47,999 nucleotides of DNA from a virus. Every line of letters begins with the position of its first letter. Within the stretch, counting starts at the first letter, position 1. Made by a program: the position numbers and the translations under genes. The stretch lies in IMG/VR virus record IMGVR_UViG_3300028596_000020, positions 1 to 47,999 of that record. One strand, given 5' to 3'. The notes under the pieces are model-generated. The model saw nothing but the letters and a program-made list of their open reading frames with translations, made no database searches and was not told the DNA's origin. Shown piece by piece: positions 15,529 to 47,070 of this stretch.

Positions 15529-16151
15529 CATCGCCAGAGAAATGGCAGACAACAGCCCGACCCGGTCGGGGGTTGATCATCCTCATCGTCATCTCGGGGT
15601 TCTGCCTTGCGTCAGTGATTGGGCTTCTGTTCTGGGACAATCACCAGCAGGACCTGGACATCGACGGCCTCGCCGGTGTCGCGCAGTCCAACGAGAACAC
15701 GGTGGACGCGCTCTGCAAGAAGACACCACGTGACCCCATCTGCAAGGCGGCGAAGGAGATCCCTGACACGTCCGACGTGGTGGACCAGCAGGAGATCCAA
15801 GACGCCGAGGTACAGGACCCCGAGATCCAAGACCCGGAGATCCAGGACCGTGAGAACCAACAGGCAGAGCGGCAGGACGCTGAGGGGCAAGACCCCGAGG
15901 CGCAGGACGGCGAGGTGCAGGACCCGGAGCCGGACGACCCCGAGGCGCAAGACCCTGAGGTGCAGGACCCGGAGATCGACGATCCGGACCCGAACAGCGC
16001 GTTGAACTTTGAGGTCGCTGACAACTGCACTCCACCAGCGGGCGAGGTTGTCACCGACGTGGGGCTCCAGGTCCGGAGGGACCCCGGCGTGGTGACCTAC
16101 ATCATCACGTGCCAGACCGCAGCGACTAACCCACCTGCTACACTGAGGTGA
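15525..16151 (+). CDS. Membrane-anchored QDPE-repeat protein
   Basis: 208 residues from GTG 15525, overlapping the previous stop (GTGA). One transmembrane helix lies at residues 16-37. A short Cys-containing spacer (Cys64, Cys73) follows. Residues about 88-152 hold around thirteen five-residue repeats of the xQDPE type (variants with Ala, Arg or Gly for Pro), strongly acidic. The C-terminal domain carries two more Cys and a GEVVTDVGLQV stretch. Synonymous codons vary between the repeats, so they are maintained at the protein level. It may span the cell wall, bind cations or space a C-terminal domain away from the membrane. Function in lysis is inferred from position. Confidence 0.65.
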   Translation: MTSPEKWQTTARPGRGLIILIVISGFCLASVIGLLFWDNHQQDLDIDGLAGVAQSNENTVDALCKKTPRDPICKAAKEIPDTSDVVDQQEIQDAEVQDPEIQDPEIQDRENQQAERQDAEGQDPEAQDGEVQDPEPDDPEAQDPEVQDPEIDDPDPNSALNFEVADNCTPPAGEVVTDVGLQVRRDPGVVTYIITCQTAATNPPATLR

Positions 16152-20677: not shown

Positions 20678-20992
20678 TCAGACTCCCTCGCTATGGACCA
20701 CGACGCGCCCCTGCGTGACAATCATAGGGGCACTCTCGAACGACTTGAGGCTGTCCACCTCATACCCGAGCGGCACGGTCACCTCCTGGGGTCGACTGGC
20801 GTGGTACCTGATGGACGACGCCACCATGGACGCCGCGTCGTCACTGTCCGCGTGGAACCCGTAGGACAGCCACGTCCCGTTCCCGCTTCTCAGCGTCGCA
20901 CAGGACACTGCCTCGTGGCCGAGCACGACGTCGTGCAGTACCGCCCCGATCGCAGCGTCCGGTACCTGGACGTGCGCGGTGTACTCGTTCAT
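20678..20992 (-). CDS. Small protein, unknown
   Basis: 104 residues, ATG 20992, overlapping the glycosyltransferase stop by four bases. Mixed alpha/beta composition with SYGFHADSDDAASMVASSIRYHA in the middle, no metal or enzymatic motif. It probably belongs to the modification operon but its role is unknown. Confidence 0.62.
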   Translation of the reverse strand: MNEYTAHVQVPDAAIGAVLHDVVLGHEAVSCATLRSGNGTWLSYGFHADSDDAASMVASSIRYHASRPQEVTVPLGYEVDSLKSFESAPMIVTQGRVVVHSEGV

Positions 20993-21990
20993 ACCAGTTC
21001 CTCCATCTCATTGACGCGGTCCTGGTCTGAGTCCCAGAACACACGCTTCATCTTGGTGCCTCGGTGCTTGTTCAGGCCGCGCCAGTCGACCTCTCCCCAC
21101 TCGTACTCATCGCCGCCCCTCGGGCAGACGCGCAGGTAGTGGTTCCCCATCTCGTACTGCTGGAGCATCGTGTACTCGTGCTCCGACAGGATGGCCCGGT
21201 TGTCCGCGGTACGGATGAGCGACTTGGTCTCGTTGACCGACTCGACCCAATGCTCGTACGCGAACGACGGCATCGTGAACGCGTCCTTGCCCGCCTGGAA
21301 CAGCGTGGCGAGAAAGCCGACGTCTTCACCCACGACGCCGAACTGCTCGAGGTTGAGCCGGATGTCGTCTTGCTCCAGCCGCTCCAGGTCCCACGCGGTC
21401 CACTGGCGCGGCGTGCTGCCGCCGTTCAGCAGGTATCGCGTCTGCTGGTTCCGGTTGTCGAACGACCGCAGCCGCTTGATCGCGGTGCCGATCACCGCGT
21501 TGGGCTCCTCGTCGAACACCATGTTCGCGACCAGCCCCATCATCGTGACGGTGGCCTCTTCCAGCGCAGCCACCCCGCCGAACTCGGCGATGTCCTCCTT
21601 GTCGAAGACCCGGCTGCACGGCATCCCCGCGTTCGGCCCGCGCACGAAGTGATGCTGATACAGGGGGCGGAACTGGAGCAGGTCGTCGTCGAGCATGACG
21701 GCCCGCTGGTGCCCGTACTCCCTCGCAAGGTCGTACGCGCCCCAGCGGGCCGCTCCACAGGAGTTGATCTGCCCGTCGGGCAGCGCCTCGAACCGCATGG
21801 CAGGGAAGTTCCTGCGGTACTCGGCTGCCTGTGACTCCCGGACGACCACGTGAACGTCGTCCAGTCGCCCCCACTCTGCCATACGGGTCAGGGTGGGCGC
21901 GTCGTATCGGTTGTAGGAGATCACCCACACCGGGAGGCGGTCCTCCTTCTCCGCCCGGTACAGGTGGTGGAACATCTCATCTCTGAGCAT
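20989..21990 (-). CDS. TET/JBP-associated-type (TAGT) glycosyltransferase, copy 1
   Basis: 333 residues from ATG 21990 (ATGA overlap with the TS-like gene stop). The VWVISYNRYDAPTL start, HVVVRESQAAEY second strand, SCGAARWGAYDLAREYGH helix and VMLDDDLLQF acidic motif (residues 101-103) match the TAGT family. These GT-A-fold enzymes are known from phages, where they glycosylate hydroxymethylated bases. A paralogue is found at 29817-30818. The first 110 residues of the two align without gaps with 63 identical positions (my count). The same operon starts with the TS-like enzyme, which suggests the sugar is placed on a modified pyrimidine. Confidence 0.8.
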   Translation of the reverse strand: MLRDEMFHHLYRAEKEDRLPVWVISYNRYDAPTLTRMAEWGRLDDVHVVVRESQAAEYRRNFPAMRFEALPDGQINSCGAARWGAYDLAREYGHQRAVMLDDDLLQFRPLYQHHFVRGPNAGMPCSRVFDKEDIAEFGGVAALEEATVTMMGLVANMVFDEEPNAVIGTAIKRLRSFDNRNQQTRYLLNGGSTPRQWTAWDLERLEQDDIRLNLEQFGVVGEDVGFLATLFQAGKDAFTMPSFAYEHWVESVNETKSLIRTADNRAILSEHEYTMLQQYEMGNHYLRVCPRGGDEYEWGEVDWRGLNKHRGTKMKRVFWDSDQDRVNEMEELV

Positions 21991-23645
21991 CAGTCGGCGT
22001 CCGCCCCTCGGTACTTGTCGGTCATGAGGGCACCGCAGTCGAGACACTTCTCGTGTTCACCGGGTCGCCCCTCGAGAAAGATGCGGGTTGAACCGTGGTT
22101 GCATTCGTCGCCGAACAACGCCGCCTTGAGGTTGTCGGCAGCCTCGGTCAGCCACACATCGCGGGCGATGGGTGCCACCCGCAGGCACAACTCCGTGACG
22201 TACTCCCGCTTCTGCTCGTCGGGGAGGTTGTCCACGTTGTCGCAGTAGGCGTTGAAGTCGTCGACGATATCCTTGATCGCGATGTCCGCCGCCTGCCCCG
22301 TGGTCTCCTCAGTTTCCGCCAGGAACCACGACAGCATGAGGTTGACCTCGTCTGGTCCGTCCATCTTGCCGGCGAGCCAGCATCCGTACTTGATCCCGTA
22401 GACCAGCAGGTCGATCAAGGTGTCCGCCGAACTGTCGTACTCGTCGCCAACTCCCAGCCGGTCCACCTTGCGGGCCATGTTCGCCAGGATCGACATCTTC
22501 TCGCCGCGCTTCTTCCACGAGTCGCCGTACGACGCGTGCTTCTTCGCGTGCAGGTCTTTGACGAAGTCGTAGAACGCCCGTACAGCCTCGCTGGTGGGTG
22601 CGCCGGTACCCGCGCCCGCCGCACCGCTGCGCGACGTCTGAGGGGCCTCTGAGAGCACGCTGGCGGGCACGCGACCTATTGCCACGGCCAGCGCCGTGCC
22701 GTGGAGCATCTCGAGCCAGCGGGGCTCGCGCTGCCAGTACCACGCGATGGCGATGGCCCACGATCGGAACAGCGGCTCATCGAAGTCCTCGAGAAGTTCC
22801 GGCGTGGCCTGCCCCGCACGACACATCCCCTCCCACGAGAACCAGCGGTCGATCATGATGTCCACCCACTCCAGGGTCCGGTCCATGTGGTCCGGCATCT
22901 GGAACGGGGTGATCGCGTGGGGGAACGGGTCGTTCTCGAGACGACTGGCCTTGTCCCAGTGTGGTGCGTAGAGATGCAGGTTGCCGATGTTGAACGTGAG
23001 GGTGCCCACGGTGTTCCCGATCAGGTGAGCCACGATCTCCTGGAGGGTGCTCCATTCGAAGGCGTTGATGCCCGACCAGCCCCACATCACGTCGTTGGAC
23101 CGCACGGTCACTGTCAGGTGCAGGGCACCGAGGCGGCTCTGGAACTGCAAGAAGTCGTTGCAGGGGATGTCCTTGCCCGGATTCGTGTCCATCTTCGGGT
23201 CGTAGATCGAGATCACCGCACGCCGGGACAGCGGGTCTTCCCTGAGCACATCCACGACGTGGGCGAGTTGGTCTCCCCCGATCAAGCCCTCGTCGTTCTG
23301 ATGCGGCCAGCCGCCCCACATCCTGATCCGCGGACCATAGCCCCCGCGCCACGTCTTCCCGTCGTCGGAGTAGTCCTTGGCTCGCGGCAGGTACGCGCTC
23401 AGCCACTCGATGTCGTTGCGCCCCGCCAGCACCCACATCGTCTCAGCGATCTGCGCGAAGACGTTGGCCTTGCGGTTGAGGCTGAGAACCTCACGGTGCT
23501 GCGGGTCGGTCAGGACGATCTGGGTGTTCAGCAGTTCCTTCACCCGCCCGTTCCTGCTGCCGACCTCGTCACCGATGTCCAGCAGCCGTGAGCAGATAAA
23601 CGGCAGCGCCTCGGTCACCGTTGGAAACGTGTACTTCTGGTTCAT
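21990..23645 (-). CDS. Thymidylate-synthase-like protein fused to Nmad1-like domain and zinc ribbon
   Basis: 551 residues. Residues about 5-300 are a ThyA-type enzyme: RNGRVKELL, IAETMWVLAGR, KDIPCNDFLQFQ with catalytic Cys162, VRSNDVMWGWSGIN (Asn194 at the position of the dUMP-binding Asn) and NLHLYAPH. The Asn suggests dUMP rather than dCMP as substrate. It could make dTMP or 5-hydroxymethyl-dUMP. A Gly/Ala/Thr linker (about 333-352) leads to a helical domain (about 352-430) with KKHASYGDSWKKRG, resembling Nmad1 (DUF1599). The C-terminal 50 residues hold a Cys/His pair and a CLDC pair, a likely zinc ribbon. It is the first gene after promoter element A. Confidence 0.85.
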   Translation of the reverse strand: MNQKYTFPTVTEALPFICSRLLDIGDEVGSRNGRVKELLNTQIVLTDPQHREVLSLNRKANVFAQIAETMWVLAGRNDIEWLSAYLPRAKDYSDDGKTWRGGYGPRIRMWGGWPHQNDEGLIGGDQLAHVVDVLREDPLSRRAVISIYDPKMDTNPGKDIPCNDFLQFQSRLGALHLTVTVRSNDVMWGWSGINAFEWSTLQEIVAHLIGNTVGTLTFNIGNLHLYAPHWDKASRLENDPFPHAITPFQMPDHMDRTLEWVDIMIDRWFSWEGMCRAGQATPELLEDFDEPLFRSWAIAIAWYWQREPRWLEMLHGTALAVAIGRVPASVLSEAPQTSRSGAAGAGTGAPTSEAVRAFYDFVKDLHAKKHASYGDSWKKRGEKMSILANMARKVDRLGVGDEYDSSADTLIDLLVYGIKYGCWLAGKMDGPDEVNLMLSWFLAETEETTGQAADIAIKDIVDDFNAYCDNVDNLPDEQKREYVTELCLRVAPIARDVWLTEAADNLKAALFGDECNHGSTRIFLEGRPGEHEKCLDCGALMTDKYRGADAD

Positions 23646-41326: not shown

Positions 41327-41620
41327 CTAGTCTTTCATGCTAGCCGTAGCGTCAAGTCCTTTTGCCCACTCCCGGACGGCATCGGTTGACGAGAGAACGA
41401 TGACCTCGAAGCCGAGGCGACGAAGACGATTGTGGACGACGGTCTGGTGAGGCTTGACGGTTCCCGTCGGCGACTTGGTCTCGACGAACATGATCCTCCC
41501 ACCGGGGAGGAGGATGATCCGGTCCGGCAGGCCAGAGACCGACGGGAGGAACTTGATCGCCCAGCCTCCGCGGTCCTTGACCTCCCAGCCGAGCACCTTC
41601 TCGACGCGGCTCTCCTTCAC
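41327..41620 (-). CDS. VRR-NUC-type nuclease
   Basis: 97 residues from GTG 41620 (GTGA overlap). SGLPDRIILLPGGRIMFVETKSPTG is the VRR-NUC core (Asp near 31, Glu and Lys of ETK), a restriction-like fold. The family often cuts branched DNA. Phage copies may resolve recombination junctions. Confidence 0.85.
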   Translation of the reverse strand: MKESRVEKVLGWEVKDRGGWAIKFLPSVSGLPDRIILLPGGRIMFVETKSPTGTVKPHQTVVHNRLRRLGFEVIVLSSTDAVREWAKGLDATASMKD

Positions 41621-44291: not shown

Positions 44292-44491
44292 CACACACGC
44301 TCCTCGATCACGAAGGACTTGCCGACCTCAGGGGCCAGGACGTCCAGCAGGGCGCAGGAGACTGCCATCCCCGGTGTGAGGTCCATGTCCCATGCCTCCA
44401 CCCACGACCACTCGTTCTCGATGATCGCCCACACCTGCGGGTGCCGGACGAGGGCCTTGCACTGACCCAGCCATTCTTGGAAGAGTTCCAT
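44291..44491 (-). CDS. First gene of operon E, unknown
   Basis: 66 residues, ATG 44491, with AGAAAGG seven bases ahead. Reads MELFQEWLGQCKALVRHPQV; Trp-rich, helical. Not recognised. Confidence 0.62.
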   Translation of the reverse strand: MELFQEWLGQCKALVRHPQVWAIIENEWSWVEAWDMDLTPGMAVSCALLDVLAPEVGKSFVIEERV

Positions 44492-44582
44492 CTCATTGCC
44501 TTTCTCTCGTCGCCGGAGCCGATCCCCGGCGCGTTGCCTACGGCTAGCCTAGCAGGCGGTTACTCGGTGGAACAGGGGTTGC
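44492..44582 (-). promoter_or_regulatory. Operon promoter-leader element, copy E
   Basis: Core GCTAGGCTAGCC then GTAGGCAAC (44553-44533), hairpin CGCCGG/CCGGCG (44511-44531), AGAAAGG (44505-44499), ATG 44491. TGTTCC lies 17 bases before TAGGCT and is a possible -35 element. Confidence 0.72.
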
Positions 44583-44809: not shown

Positions 44810-45063
44810 CAGTCTTCCTCCTCGTTCACGTACACCCAGTCCCCGGGAATCCACACCCGGACGAGGGCCTTGCCCCGGCCCTGACGCTCGTTCCGGAGCG
44901 CCGTGCTCCTGTCCCGGACGATCCAGGGGCGGGCGTCGGGGTCGGACAGTTCATCCGCCCGCTCCGTCGCGTACTGGACCATCTCGTCCATGTACGGGTA
45001 GATCCGGTGGTGGAGCGAGCGCGGGGGCTGCTCCCCCTTCGGCTCCTCCTTGGTCTCAGCCAT
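44809..45063 (-). CDS. Protein of unknown function
   Basis: 84 residues, ATG 45063. Reads MAETKEEPKGEQPPRSLHHR then a YPYMDEMVQYATERADELS helix, then strands (ALVRVWIPGDWVYV). Overlaps the gene upstream by eight bases. Not recognised. Confidence 0.6.
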   Translation of the reverse strand: MAETKEEPKGEQPPRSLHHRIYPYMDEMVQYATERADELSDPDARPWIVRDRSTALRNERQGRGKALVRVWIPGDWVYVNEEED

Positions 45064-45205
45064 CGGTGCTCACCCTCTCCGGGAGATCCTTGCTCGCGGT
45101 CTCGTAGCAGTCGGCGGTCTTGCCGCACTCCTCACACGGACCACGGCTGATCGGGATGATCCCGGGCCACCCATTCCTGGCCCGACACCCTTCGCAGTAG
45201 AACAT
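45056..45205 (-). CDS. Zinc-ribbon miniprotein (49 residues)
   Basis: 49 residues from ATG 45205 with an ideal AGGAGG site. CEGC (4-7) and CEEC (24-27), plus Cys33. The start is set by the ribosome site after the RNA hairpin module at 45224-45288. Probably binds zinc. Confidence 0.68.
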   Translation of the reverse strand: MFYCEGCRARNGWPGIIPISRGPCEECGKTADCYETASKDLPERVSTDG

Positions 45206-45223: not shown

Positions 45224-45288
45224 GGCCCCGGCTGGTCCGGAGCCTCGTGCCCGCCCCGGACTCGAACCGGGGAGTGTGCCGCTCGGGC
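45224..45288 (-). ncRNA. tRNA-acceptor/T-arm-like minihelix plus hairpin, copy 1
   Basis: In the transcript: outer stem GCCCG/CGGGC (45288-45284 with 45253-45249), an 11-base spacer, and inner stem CCCCGG/CCGGGG around the seven-base loop TTCGAGT, which fits the tRNA T-loop consensus TTCRANY. ACGA follows, then a second hairpin GGCTCCGG/CCGGGGCC (45244-45224), ribosome site and ATG 45205. It begins eight bases after the stop of the gene upstream. There is no D-arm or anticodon arm. Confidence 0.7.
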
Positions 45289-45296
45289 TTCCCATG

Positions 45297-45596
45297 TCAG
45301 TCGTCATAGCCCTCGCAGGTCACGTTCGGTCGGGCGCAGTACGCGGCCTGGAGCCGGTGAGCGCGGCGATGAGTGATCGGCCGGGCGAGGTATCCGCCCT
45401 GCCACGCGGTGAGGATCATGGACTGCCCGTCTCCGTTCCCTTGGTGCCGTGCGTCCCAGACGCATCGGTAGACGTAGCACTCGCCCTCGCTGGGAGCGGC
45501 TGGCAGCCCTCGGGGGAACACGGCGTCAGCGGGGGCCGTGGTCGCGGCGGCAGGACCGGACAGGACGAGTGCCGCGACGGTGATGGCGATACGCAT
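45297..45596 (-). CDS. Small secreted protein, unknown
   Basis: 99 residues from ATG 45596. The start (MRIAITVAALVLSGPAAATT) is a likely Sec signal peptide, with cleavage near residue 18-25. The mature part is small, with four Cys (40, 45, 87, 94) that could form disulfides. It is in an operon of otherwise cytoplasmic small proteins. It may act at the cell surface, such as in superinfection exclusion or wall contact. Not recognised. Confidence 0.65.
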   Translation of the reverse strand: MRIAITVAALVLSGPAAATTAPADAVFPRGLPAAPSEGECYVYRCVWDARHQGNGDGQSMILTAWQGGYLARPITHRRAHRLQAAYCARPNVTCEGYDD

Positions 45597-45598
45597 GA

Positions 45599-46090
45599 TC
45601 AGTACCCCATGCTCTCTGCGCGGTGGTCGCGCTGCCAGGACCGCTCTTCGGGGCACTCGTCTTCGCACCAGCGGACACCGGCTGCGCGGTATCCCTCTTC
45701 GGTCTGCTCGGACCAGTAGAGGCCCTCGGGCCGGACCTCGAGCGTGCCCTGCCCGTGGAGGCTGACGATGCTTCCCATCACCCGCTCCTTGAAGTGGAGG
45801 TCCCCGAACTGGTCGCACCGCTCCTGGAGGGTCATCTCCACGACGTGCCCGCCGCTGTAGTCCCCGTCGCAGTCGCGTGCGCTCGTGGCGACGTGCGCGT
45901 GAACCTTGAAGCGGTGGTCCCACGCGTCCTCAGTGCCCGACCAGATGGTCTCGCCGTCCCCGGTCCGCGGGGCGTGCGGCAGATCGACGACGTAGGCGAA
46001 GCCCCCGCCGAACGGCTGGATGCTCTTCACCACGCCGATCTCTCCGTCCATGCGGCGAACGACCTGCTCGCCGATGCTGAACCTGCTCAT
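45599..46090 (-). CDS. Protein of unknown function
   Basis: 163 residues, ATG 46090, with GAAGGAGG upstream. N-terminal SH3-like strands (SIGEQVVRRMDGEIGVVKSI) and a YVVDLPHAPRTGDGETIWSG turn resemble small beta-barrel proteins. A second half has MTLQERCDQFGDLHFKERV and a C-terminal CEDEC pair. The start follows the RNA module copy 2. Function unknown. Confidence 0.6.
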   Translation of the reverse strand: MSRFSIGEQVVRRMDGEIGVVKSIQPFGGGFAYVVDLPHAPRTGDGETIWSGTEDAWDHRFKVHAHVATSARDCDGDYSGGHVVEMTLQERCDQFGDLHFKERVMGSIVSLHGQGTLEVRPEGLYWSEQTEEGYRAAGVRWCEDECPEERSWQRDHRAESMGY

Positions 46091-46106
46091 CTCGTTCCTC
46101 CTTCGT

Positions 46107-46173
46107 GGCCCCGGCCTGTCCGGAGCCTCGTGCCCTGCGCGGGACTCGCACCCGCGTGTCGGCTGGTCAGGGC
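46107..46173 (-). ncRNA. tRNA-acceptor/T-arm-like minihelix plus hairpin, copy 2
   Basis: Outer stem GCCCTG/CAGGGC, inner stem CGCGGG/CCCGCG, loop TGCGAGT (46132-46173), then ACGA and second hairpin GGCTCCGG/CCGGGGCC (46107-46127). Compared with copies 1 and 3, the outer and inner stem bases change on both sides, keeping the pairing. It starts eight bases after the upstream stop and ends before the ribosome site of 45599-46090. Confidence 0.72.
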
Positions 46174-46181
46174 TGCCATGC

Positions 46182-46460
46182 TCAGTCGAACCTGGACAGC
46201 GACGCCTCCATCGGCGTCAGCGGGCGCGGCGGCGGCGTGGGCGCGTGGACGGACACCCCGCAGTCAATGCACCCGAGCAGGTCTCCGTTGCGGGACAGGG
46301 TGTGCGGCACCGGATTGGGGATGGTCCACAGCGCCCCTCCCTCGCGCTGCGGGCGGGCCGGGTCAGGAATCCACGGCGAGTGCTGCTCGCTGAACTCCTG
46401 GATGATCGCCTTGGCTGCTGCGTGCGCCGCGAGCGCGGCGGCGTAGGTGGATCCTGACAT
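46182..46460 (-). CDS. Protein of unknown function
   Basis: 92 residues, ATG 46460. An Ala-rich helix start (YAAALAAHAAAKAIIQEFSE) then a middle DPARPQREGG and a CIDC pair near residue 64. The start follows the RNA module copy 3. Not recognised. Confidence 0.58.
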   Translation of the reverse strand: MSGSTYAAALAAHAAAKAIIQEFSEQHSPWIPDPARPQREGGALWTIPNPVPHTLSRNGDLLGCIDCGVSVHAPTPPPRPLTPMEASLSRFD

Positions 46461-46479
46461 CTGCTCTTCCTTCCAACGT

Positions 46480-46544
46480 GGCGGGGGCTGATCCCTCGCC
46501 TAGTGCCCGCCCCGGACTCGCACCGGGGTGTCTGCTGGTCGGGC
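46480..46544 (-). ncRNA. tRNA-acceptor/T-arm-like minihelix plus hairpin, copy 3
   Basis: Outer stem GCCCG/CGGGC, inner stem CCCCGG/CCGGGG, loop TGCGAGT (46505-46544), spacer ACCAGCAGACA. ACTA follows, then a second hairpin of seven pairs and one mismatch (46480-46500). It begins ten bases after the upstream stop (46555). Confidence 0.7.
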
Positions 46545-46554
46545 TGCCCTGCGA

Positions 46555-47001: not shown

Positions 47002-47070
47002 TGGACCAACCTTTCTGTAGTGATTCTGGCCTCCCCCGTTGGGCTGCCTACGGCTAGCCTAGCAGGCCGG
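47002..47070 (-). promoter_or_regulatory. Operon promoter-leader element, copy F
   Basis: Core GCTAGGCTAGCC then GTAGGCAGC (47063-47043), AGAAAGG (47016-47010), ATG 47001. The hairpin between is weak in this copy. This is the first promoter of the minus-strand block. Confidence 0.7.

Follow-up and report, generated by a model that had tools for sequence, protein, structure and literature searches.

What does a phage operon gain from pieces of tRNA architecture set between its genes? The question arises in the window, a stretch of 47,999 nt of viral DNA (positions 1 to 47,999 of IMG/VR record IMGVR_UViG_3300028596_000020) from a phage only distantly related to known ones, whose capsid protein is ~30% identical to those of Gordonia, Arthrobacter, and other actinobacterial phages. 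A sequence-only reading of this DNA had described three intercistronic modules with a shared outer stem, an 11-base spacer, an inner stem and a T-loop, each a few bases past a stop codon and followed by a second hairpin and a ribosome site. All three modules were confirmed as described, on the minus strand, in the same direction as the genes and between stop and start codons: copies 1, 2, and 3 begin 8, 8, and 10 nt past the stop codon, and past each come, in order, ACG or ACT, a hairpin of 21 nt, a purine-rich Shine-Dalgarno sequence and ATG. The features are as follows, with each element read as RNA in the order stem, linker, stem, loop, stem, stem, 3' end.

45056..45205, minus strand: gene behind copy 1, 49 aa, with CxxC pairs, ATG at 45205
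45224..45244, minus strand: second hairpin 3' of copy 1, GGCTCCGGACCAGCCGGGGCC, from sequence and folding
45246-45289, minus strand: full extent of copy 1; a blastn match to Streptomyces phages spans this region
45249..45288, minus strand: copy 1 minihelix, R1 65.6 bits, A(-1) at 45289, ACG at 45248-45246; GCCCG, AGCGGCACACT, CCCCGG, TTCGAGT, CCGGGG, CGGGC, ACGA
45599..46090, minus strand: gene behind copy 2, 163 aa
46107..46127, minus strand: second hairpin 3' of copy 2, GGCTCCGGACAGGCCGGGGCC, from sequence and folding
46131-46174, minus strand: full extent of copy 2
46132..46173, minus strand: copy 2 minihelix, R1 48.3 bits, 12 bp in total (6+6), then ACG; GCCCTG, ACCAGCCGACA, CGCGGG, TGCGAGT, CCCGCG, CAGGGC, ACGA
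46182..46460, minus strand: gene behind copy 3, 92 aa, weak match to phrog_25035 (function unknown)
46480..46500, minus strand: second hairpin 3' of copy 3, GGCGAGGGATCAGCCCCCGCC, from sequence, folding and the enrichment of such hairpins family-wide
46502-46545, minus strand: full extent of copy 3
46505..46544, minus strand: copy 3 minihelix, R1 64.9 bits, A(-1) at 46545, R-C-N = ACT at 46504-46502; GCCCG, ACCAGCAGACA, CCCCGG, TGCGAGT, CCGGGG, CGGGC, ACTA
47030..47065, no strand assigned: putative promoter- or operator-like repeat, core CTACGGCTAGCCTAGCAG, 5' of the block's first gene

The scores come from R1, a covariance model built from 40 copies and run on the window without filters; the next best place in the 48 kb after the three copies reached 12.5 bits (E = 0.33). 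Because the window's own copies are among those 40, independent evidence was taken from other phages. In energy folding, the isolated window elements fold as drawn at -20 to -21 kcal/mol; when the whole intergenic RNA is folded, the minihelix of copy 2 is the minimum-energy structure, and those of copies 1 and 3 lie 1.1–1.3 kcal/mol above an alternative fold. A terminator reading of the stems was ruled out, as no U-run lies 3' of them in the window.

A family search with the 163-aa gene found no family, and the 92-aa gene starts ~44 nt past the stem of the copy 3 minihelix. The next copy of the motif at 47030 lies at 44520-44555, and the three elements sit only at inner gaps between the two, leaving the block's first gene with no element in front. 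This 36-nt motif occurs five times in the window (29588, 35631, 41287, 44520, and 47030; core GGCTAGCCTAG or near), precedes gene blocks and may be a promoter or operator; its core GGCTAGCC(T)A is also present in mycobacteriophages Predator, Damien, and Phreeze. Elsewhere in the window, a TET-associated glycosyltransferase adjoins thymidylate synthase (20992-23645), neighbors from which hypermodified phage DNA is possible; a 15-nt tandem repeat at 15768-16004 is probably coding (QDPEI-type repeats); and the right end of the contig (47500-47940) carries GC-rich repeats of a 44-nt family.

Does the fold hold beyond this phage? Several hundred copies of the ~40-nt element were found overall, and two sets carry the analysis: 284 distinct copies with 5+6 pairs, found by requiring the stems, and 223 copies selected by linker and loop sequence alone, with no outer stem required. 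The outer stem is fully paired (5/5) in 207 of these 223, and in at most 6 when the partners are shifted by one base, so the pairing is not chance. The sequence-only reading had pointed to compensatory stem changes between the window copies, and both stems indeed covary across the family: over 40 diverse copies, the covariation score is 0.908, against 0.187 for shuffled alignments and at most 0.211 for slid partners, and standard pairs fill 97.3% of pair cells (60.4% when shuffled). Outer pairs 2–4 vary freely among the 284 copies. In the loci fetched for such elements, T-loop hairpins of exactly 6 bp number 544, vs. 6 with control loops. In most copies, the stack from G1 up to the T-loop counts 11 pairs; it reaches 12 in window copy 2 and in others with a 6-bp outer stem. 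A linkerless T-loop hairpin of 12 positions occupies one shared gap in three mycobacteriophages, with different stem letters in each and GCG always next; it is perfect in Predator and has one mismatch each in Damien and Phreeze, both mismatch-bearing relatives having been read by eye rather than by automatic scan. No spike of linkerless hairpins at 12 bp appeared over all loci, where the automatic scan returned one sequence. We regard the structure as very likely real.

The consensus of the spacer is A-[C/G/A]-Y-G-G-C-A-[G/C/T]-A-C-A, and its positions 2 and 8 covary with each other (C-G 157, G-C 83, A-T 35, T-A 4 in the 284-copy set), being Watson-Crick in 216 of the 223 sequence-selected copies, vs. 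a shuffled mean of 90 and maximum of 110. In tRNA, the elbow consists of the contacts G18-U55 and G19-C56. Linker position 4 pairs with T-loop position 55 as G-T in 242, A-G in 40, and G-C in 2 of the 284 copies, with no A-T or G-G among them; in the 223-copy set, G-T or A-G occurs in 221 and G-C in the other two (shuffled mean 164, maximum 176). The structural scan imposed neither the 2/8 nor the 18/55 covariation; some loci had been fetched with patterns fixing one 18/55 combination, and a third scan left both positions open. Linker position 5 with T-loop 56 is G-C in 284/284, as is pair 53-61; the scan required C56, but neither G19 nor that pair 53-61 be of the G-C type. The A-G switch at 18/55 is seen in window copies 2 and 3, in Actinomyces phage xhp1, in Predator, and in many IMG/VR contigs, and the variant linkers AACGGTTTTCG and GATGGTCGAAA retain G-G. 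The element thus combines a TNCRA T-loop closed by G53-C61 with a D-loop-like G18/G19 matching 55/56. Judged from these sequence patterns, the 11-base spacer is a miniature D-loop, and because its G-G covaries with or matches T-loop 55/56, the elbow can form without anticodon or D-stem. The original acceptor/T-arm reading is thereby strongly supported and also extended, to a D-loop mimic that covaries both with itself and with the T-loop.

The ends of the element are likewise tRNA-like. Outer pair 1 (G1-C72) is G-C in 264 of the 284 copies, R73 is A or G in 273 (~96%), and C74 is present in 277 (97.5%), while position 75 is free (T, G, C, or A; ACC plus GCC together 12/284) and the C75 and A76 of an RCCA contact are usually absent. 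Host tRNA genes that lack an encoded CCA show the same pattern, with C74 in 57/57 and a variable position 75 in three actinobacterial genomes and C74 in 23/24 in a Bacteroidota genome; among host tRNAs of all kinds (ARAGORN-based), C74 is found in 107/107, and most of the host tRNA genes examined are likewise without C75 and A76. It is from this shared C74 with a free N75 that we read the 3' end as resembling that of a host tRNA gene. At position -1, A occurs in 200/284 elements, and host tRNA genes favor C (46/107).

In Danzina (8/8 matches) and phiHau3 (7/7), the elements lie in annotated gaps in sense orientation, and in one Danzina block (L198, 4.4 to 11.6 kb), 8 of the 9 gaps longer than 70 nt hold one; in Predator and Send513, the few matches outside gaps overlap annotated genes, whose annotated starts may be wrong. 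In 164 non-redundant copies, the nearest stop triplet ends 0–9 nt 5' of the stem, vs. 53 at a control position, and start codons mostly lie 30–54 nt 3' of the stem. Most copies have a small downstream hairpin that begins 1–5 nt past R73 (mean z -2.07, 56% below -2; control stretches -0.1 to -0.3); copies in Mu-like Bacteroidota phages have none, and the genes behind them are without an obvious ribosome site. A hairpin upstream of the element, enclosing the stop codon, had been noticed by eye in Camvirus but was dropped since it was not enriched (mean z -0.62 vs. -0.49 in neighboring DNA).

Who carries the element? A blastn search with the last 6 kb of the window against 50,697 phage records hit these modules and, besides them, only a cysteine protease gene; the relatives of the modules were found in Streptomyces phages (including genus Camvirus) and in xhp1. 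Pattern scans of IMG/VR added at least 120 stretches in one scan and 34 in another; a 5-nt gap between linker and T-stem, where 2–8 were allowed, dominates in these matches (183/216 among the matches listed and 31/38), so most are not chance. Joe, phiScoe54, Danzina, phiHau3, Predator, Send513, and Damien have ~5–15 copies each in the stretches read, blast places reach 9 per phage genome, and xhp1 shows one copy. Overall, carriers comprise phages of Streptomyces, Mycobacterium, and Actinomyces, mobilizable Corynebacterium plasmids (a single copy, upstream of repA in one annotated plasmid) and Mu-like Bacteroidota phages, where copies precede a transposase gene (L017) and the MuA-like gene of Elizabethkingia phage TCUEAP3. 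Rather than being absent from related phages, the structure is conserved in many unrelated ones. Among 84,980 species genomes, a tight pattern gave 10 loci, every one confirmed by R1; among 395 other Actinomycetota genomes, R1 gave 2 further, weak matches, and 295 additional Bacteroidota genomes gave none. The element belongs to mobile elements, not hosts.

Several loci stand apart in form or annotation. In Corynebacterium plasmids L335 (3002-3046, the repA leader) and L334, a hairpin and an inverted repeat resembling a terminator lie 3' of the element. Head-to-tail arrays of elements, spaced ~100–260 nt and gene-free, occur at L122:1850-5150 and L051:9850-11500 and also in L124 and L010; all four lie in GC-rich DNA with a pentamer period, (GGCNN)n, and many copies have a leader resembling GGGATTTAC in front; the tRNA-Ile gene beside the L122 array is similar to the elements in its 3' flank (ACG followed by a hairpin). 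Copies in Streptomyces phages Endor2 (44377-44424) and Sitrop (41492-41539) are deposited as tRNA-Arg, an annotation that is very likely mistaken; one tRNA is the count given in the Sitrop announcement (PMC8407746). A paper on Camvirus phages Vanseggelen and Verabelle makes no mention of tRNA or RNA-seq, and an infection transcriptome of Rhodococcus phage WC1 was uninformative on the element.

The best explanation, to which we assign a probability of about 0.5 as the main function, is that each module acts in cis as a precursor-tRNA mimic inside the polycistronic phage mRNA, cut by host RNase P. The mimic would retain only the parts that this enzyme reads (an acceptor stem on a T-arm of 11–12 bp, the elbow, G1-C72, and R73-C74), and RNase P would bind the elbow and cut just 5' of G1, separating the message between genes. 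The mRNA of the downstream gene would then begin with a tRNA-like fold that is closed, and in most actinophage copies the hairpin and ribosome site come next; such a structured start should resist 5' decay, so that each cistron may acquire its own half-life. Cutting before G1 was judged likeliest because the fold, while dispensing with the anticodon, preserves elbow, acceptor stack, G1-C72, and R73-C74; it also counts in favor that the elements are phage-borne while RNase P is universal. The enzyme gauges distance along the T-arm/acceptor stack, starting at the elbow (PMC4919913); it forms pairs with the 3' RCC (PMC12710915), and phage RNAs and some mRNAs are among its known substrates (PMC11143913). 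Three RNase P-style features lend this reading partial support, namely G1-C72, R73-C74 with a free N75, and the 12-position linkerless variant. Against it, most copies have 11 rather than 12 pairs from G1 to the T-loop, A predominates at -1 where host tRNA genes mostly have C, and the RCCA contact usually lacks its C75 and A76, a lack shared by most host tRNA genes examined. The Mu-like Bacteroidota copies lack the downstream hairpin, xhp1 and the Corynebacterium plasmids have a single copy, and the gene-free arrays of L122 and L051 fit poorly with simple mRNA segmentation. Moreover, other proteins, among them RNase Z and the CCA-adding enzyme, share the recognition of elbow plus acceptor.

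Several of the features listed for RNase P would also be explained by RNase Z or by a tRNA-handling protein bound to the element. RNase Z could cut after R73, on its own or together with RNase P, so that the mRNA would begin at C74, just 5' of the second hairpin, and the minihelix might be freed as a small RNA; this enzyme too measures along the acceptor stem and has 3' CCA as an antideterminant (PMC4919913). The rarity of C at 75 would suit it, and the new 5' end would be shielded by a hairpin that begins so soon after R73. Yet RNase Z is not known to need C74, which 97.5% of copies retain, and the hairpin is absent from the Mu-like Bacteroidota copies, so that we hold cleavage by RNase Z to be quite unlikely. 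Rather unlikely, in our estimation, is an uncut docking site for a tRNA-handling protein (a modification enzyme, the CCA-adding enzyme, EF-Tu, or a phage protein) that would control translation or stability of the next gene: many tRNA proteins recognize the elbow, and the element mostly stands 30–54 nt ahead of the start codon, but conservation of G1-C72 and R-C-N points to end processing, and the Bacteroidota copies precede genes without an obvious ribosome site.

Action in trans, with excised mini-tRNAs serving as decoys for host tRNA-directed nucleases or occupying RNase P, has its best hint in the gene-free arrays of L122 and L051, the former beside a tRNA gene, and would draw on the multiplicity of copies (up to 9 blast places per phage genome). 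We consider it improbable, as nearly all copies in annotated phages lie within operons directly before genes and hold no anticodon for anticodon nucleases to cut. T-arm and acceptor halves also occur at tRNA-type attachment sites, and the copies of two phages were deposited as tRNA-Arg; however, stem covariation and the many copies per genome refute pseudogenes or tRNA-derived attachment sites, and with the 5' acceptor strand and D-loop intact and almost no match in host genomes, we give this origin virtually no chance. Returning to RNase P, we put forward only tentatively, at rather less than even odds, the wider proposal that unrelated DNA phages of Actinomycetota and Bacteroidota use intergenic, anticodon-less pre-tRNA mimics, with host RNase P as a general mRNA-segmenting enzyme through which every cistron would obtain a capped 5' end and a half-life of its own, and with gene-free arrays that may also release mini-tRNAs.

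How does the element compare with known systems? Like tRNA (RF00005) and the tRNA-like domain of tmRNA, it has a TTCRA T-loop closed by G53-C61, G18G19, G1-C72, a discriminator and C74, and like the tmRNA domain it has almost no D-stem; unlike both, it has no anticodon arm or tag frame, and a 10–12 nt linker replaces the D, anticodon, and variable arms. With no anticodon, D-stem, or cloverleaf, it gave no Rfam tRNA match even at E 5, and ARAGORN called no tRNA in the window, element copies included. A tmRNA was set aside, with none called in the window and the element only ~40 nt long and without a tag reading frame. In Rfam 15, no family reached the gathering threshold for the element, the only hit being the unrelated GOLLD RNA; Send513 carries a GOLLD RNA (L200:19206-19666, 180 bits). 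Start-associated sequences of mycobacteriophages are repeated, intergenic, sequence-conserved DNA sites in one orientation. Mycobacteriophage stoperators share these properties (PMC3029335). A sequence-specific DNA repeat of either kind was ruled out, as the stems of the element vary with compensation and keep their pairing.

The T7 early mRNA is split at structured intercistronic RNase III sites cut by the host endonuclease. Common to both systems would be structured intercistronic sites for a host RNA-processing endonuclease, duplexes for RNase III in T7 and a tRNA elbow with acceptor stem here, where cutting is what we infer. Plant RNA viruses carry a tRNA mimic at the 3' end of the genome, and mascRNA precursors (MALAT1) are cut by RNase P and RNase Z at a structure at the 3' end of a long RNA; in contrast to these 3'-terminal mimics, the phage elements are internal and repeated in DNA-phage operons. 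M3 RNA, the C4 antisense RNA of P1/P7, and T4 gene 32 mRNA are RNase P substrates (PMC11143913). These are tRNA-like to the host enzyme but single RNAs, unlike the elements, which are multi-copy per genome, lie between protein genes and occur in unrelated phages. We know of none among them—M3 being an RNA of phage phi80—that has the fold of the element. Viral RNAs that mimic tRNA and phage RNAs that RNase P cuts are both known kinds, and the literature searched, with subscription journals mostly outside its coverage, did not describe the element. As far as could be found, what is new is an intercistronic tRNA mimic that is multi-copy and shared by phages of two phyla.

The element is a widespread, covariation-supported RNA family, some copies of which are deposited as tRNA-Arg, and it isolates what a tRNA-processing enzyme may need: elbow, 11–12 bp, G1-C72, RC, and nothing else. 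If RNase P cuts it, polycistronic constructs for Streptomyces and mycobacteria could use the elements as small cassettes for cleavage. Phage operon mRNA would then also have a general processor in a host ribozyme that is essential and conserved, a role so far best known for RNase III in T7-like phages.
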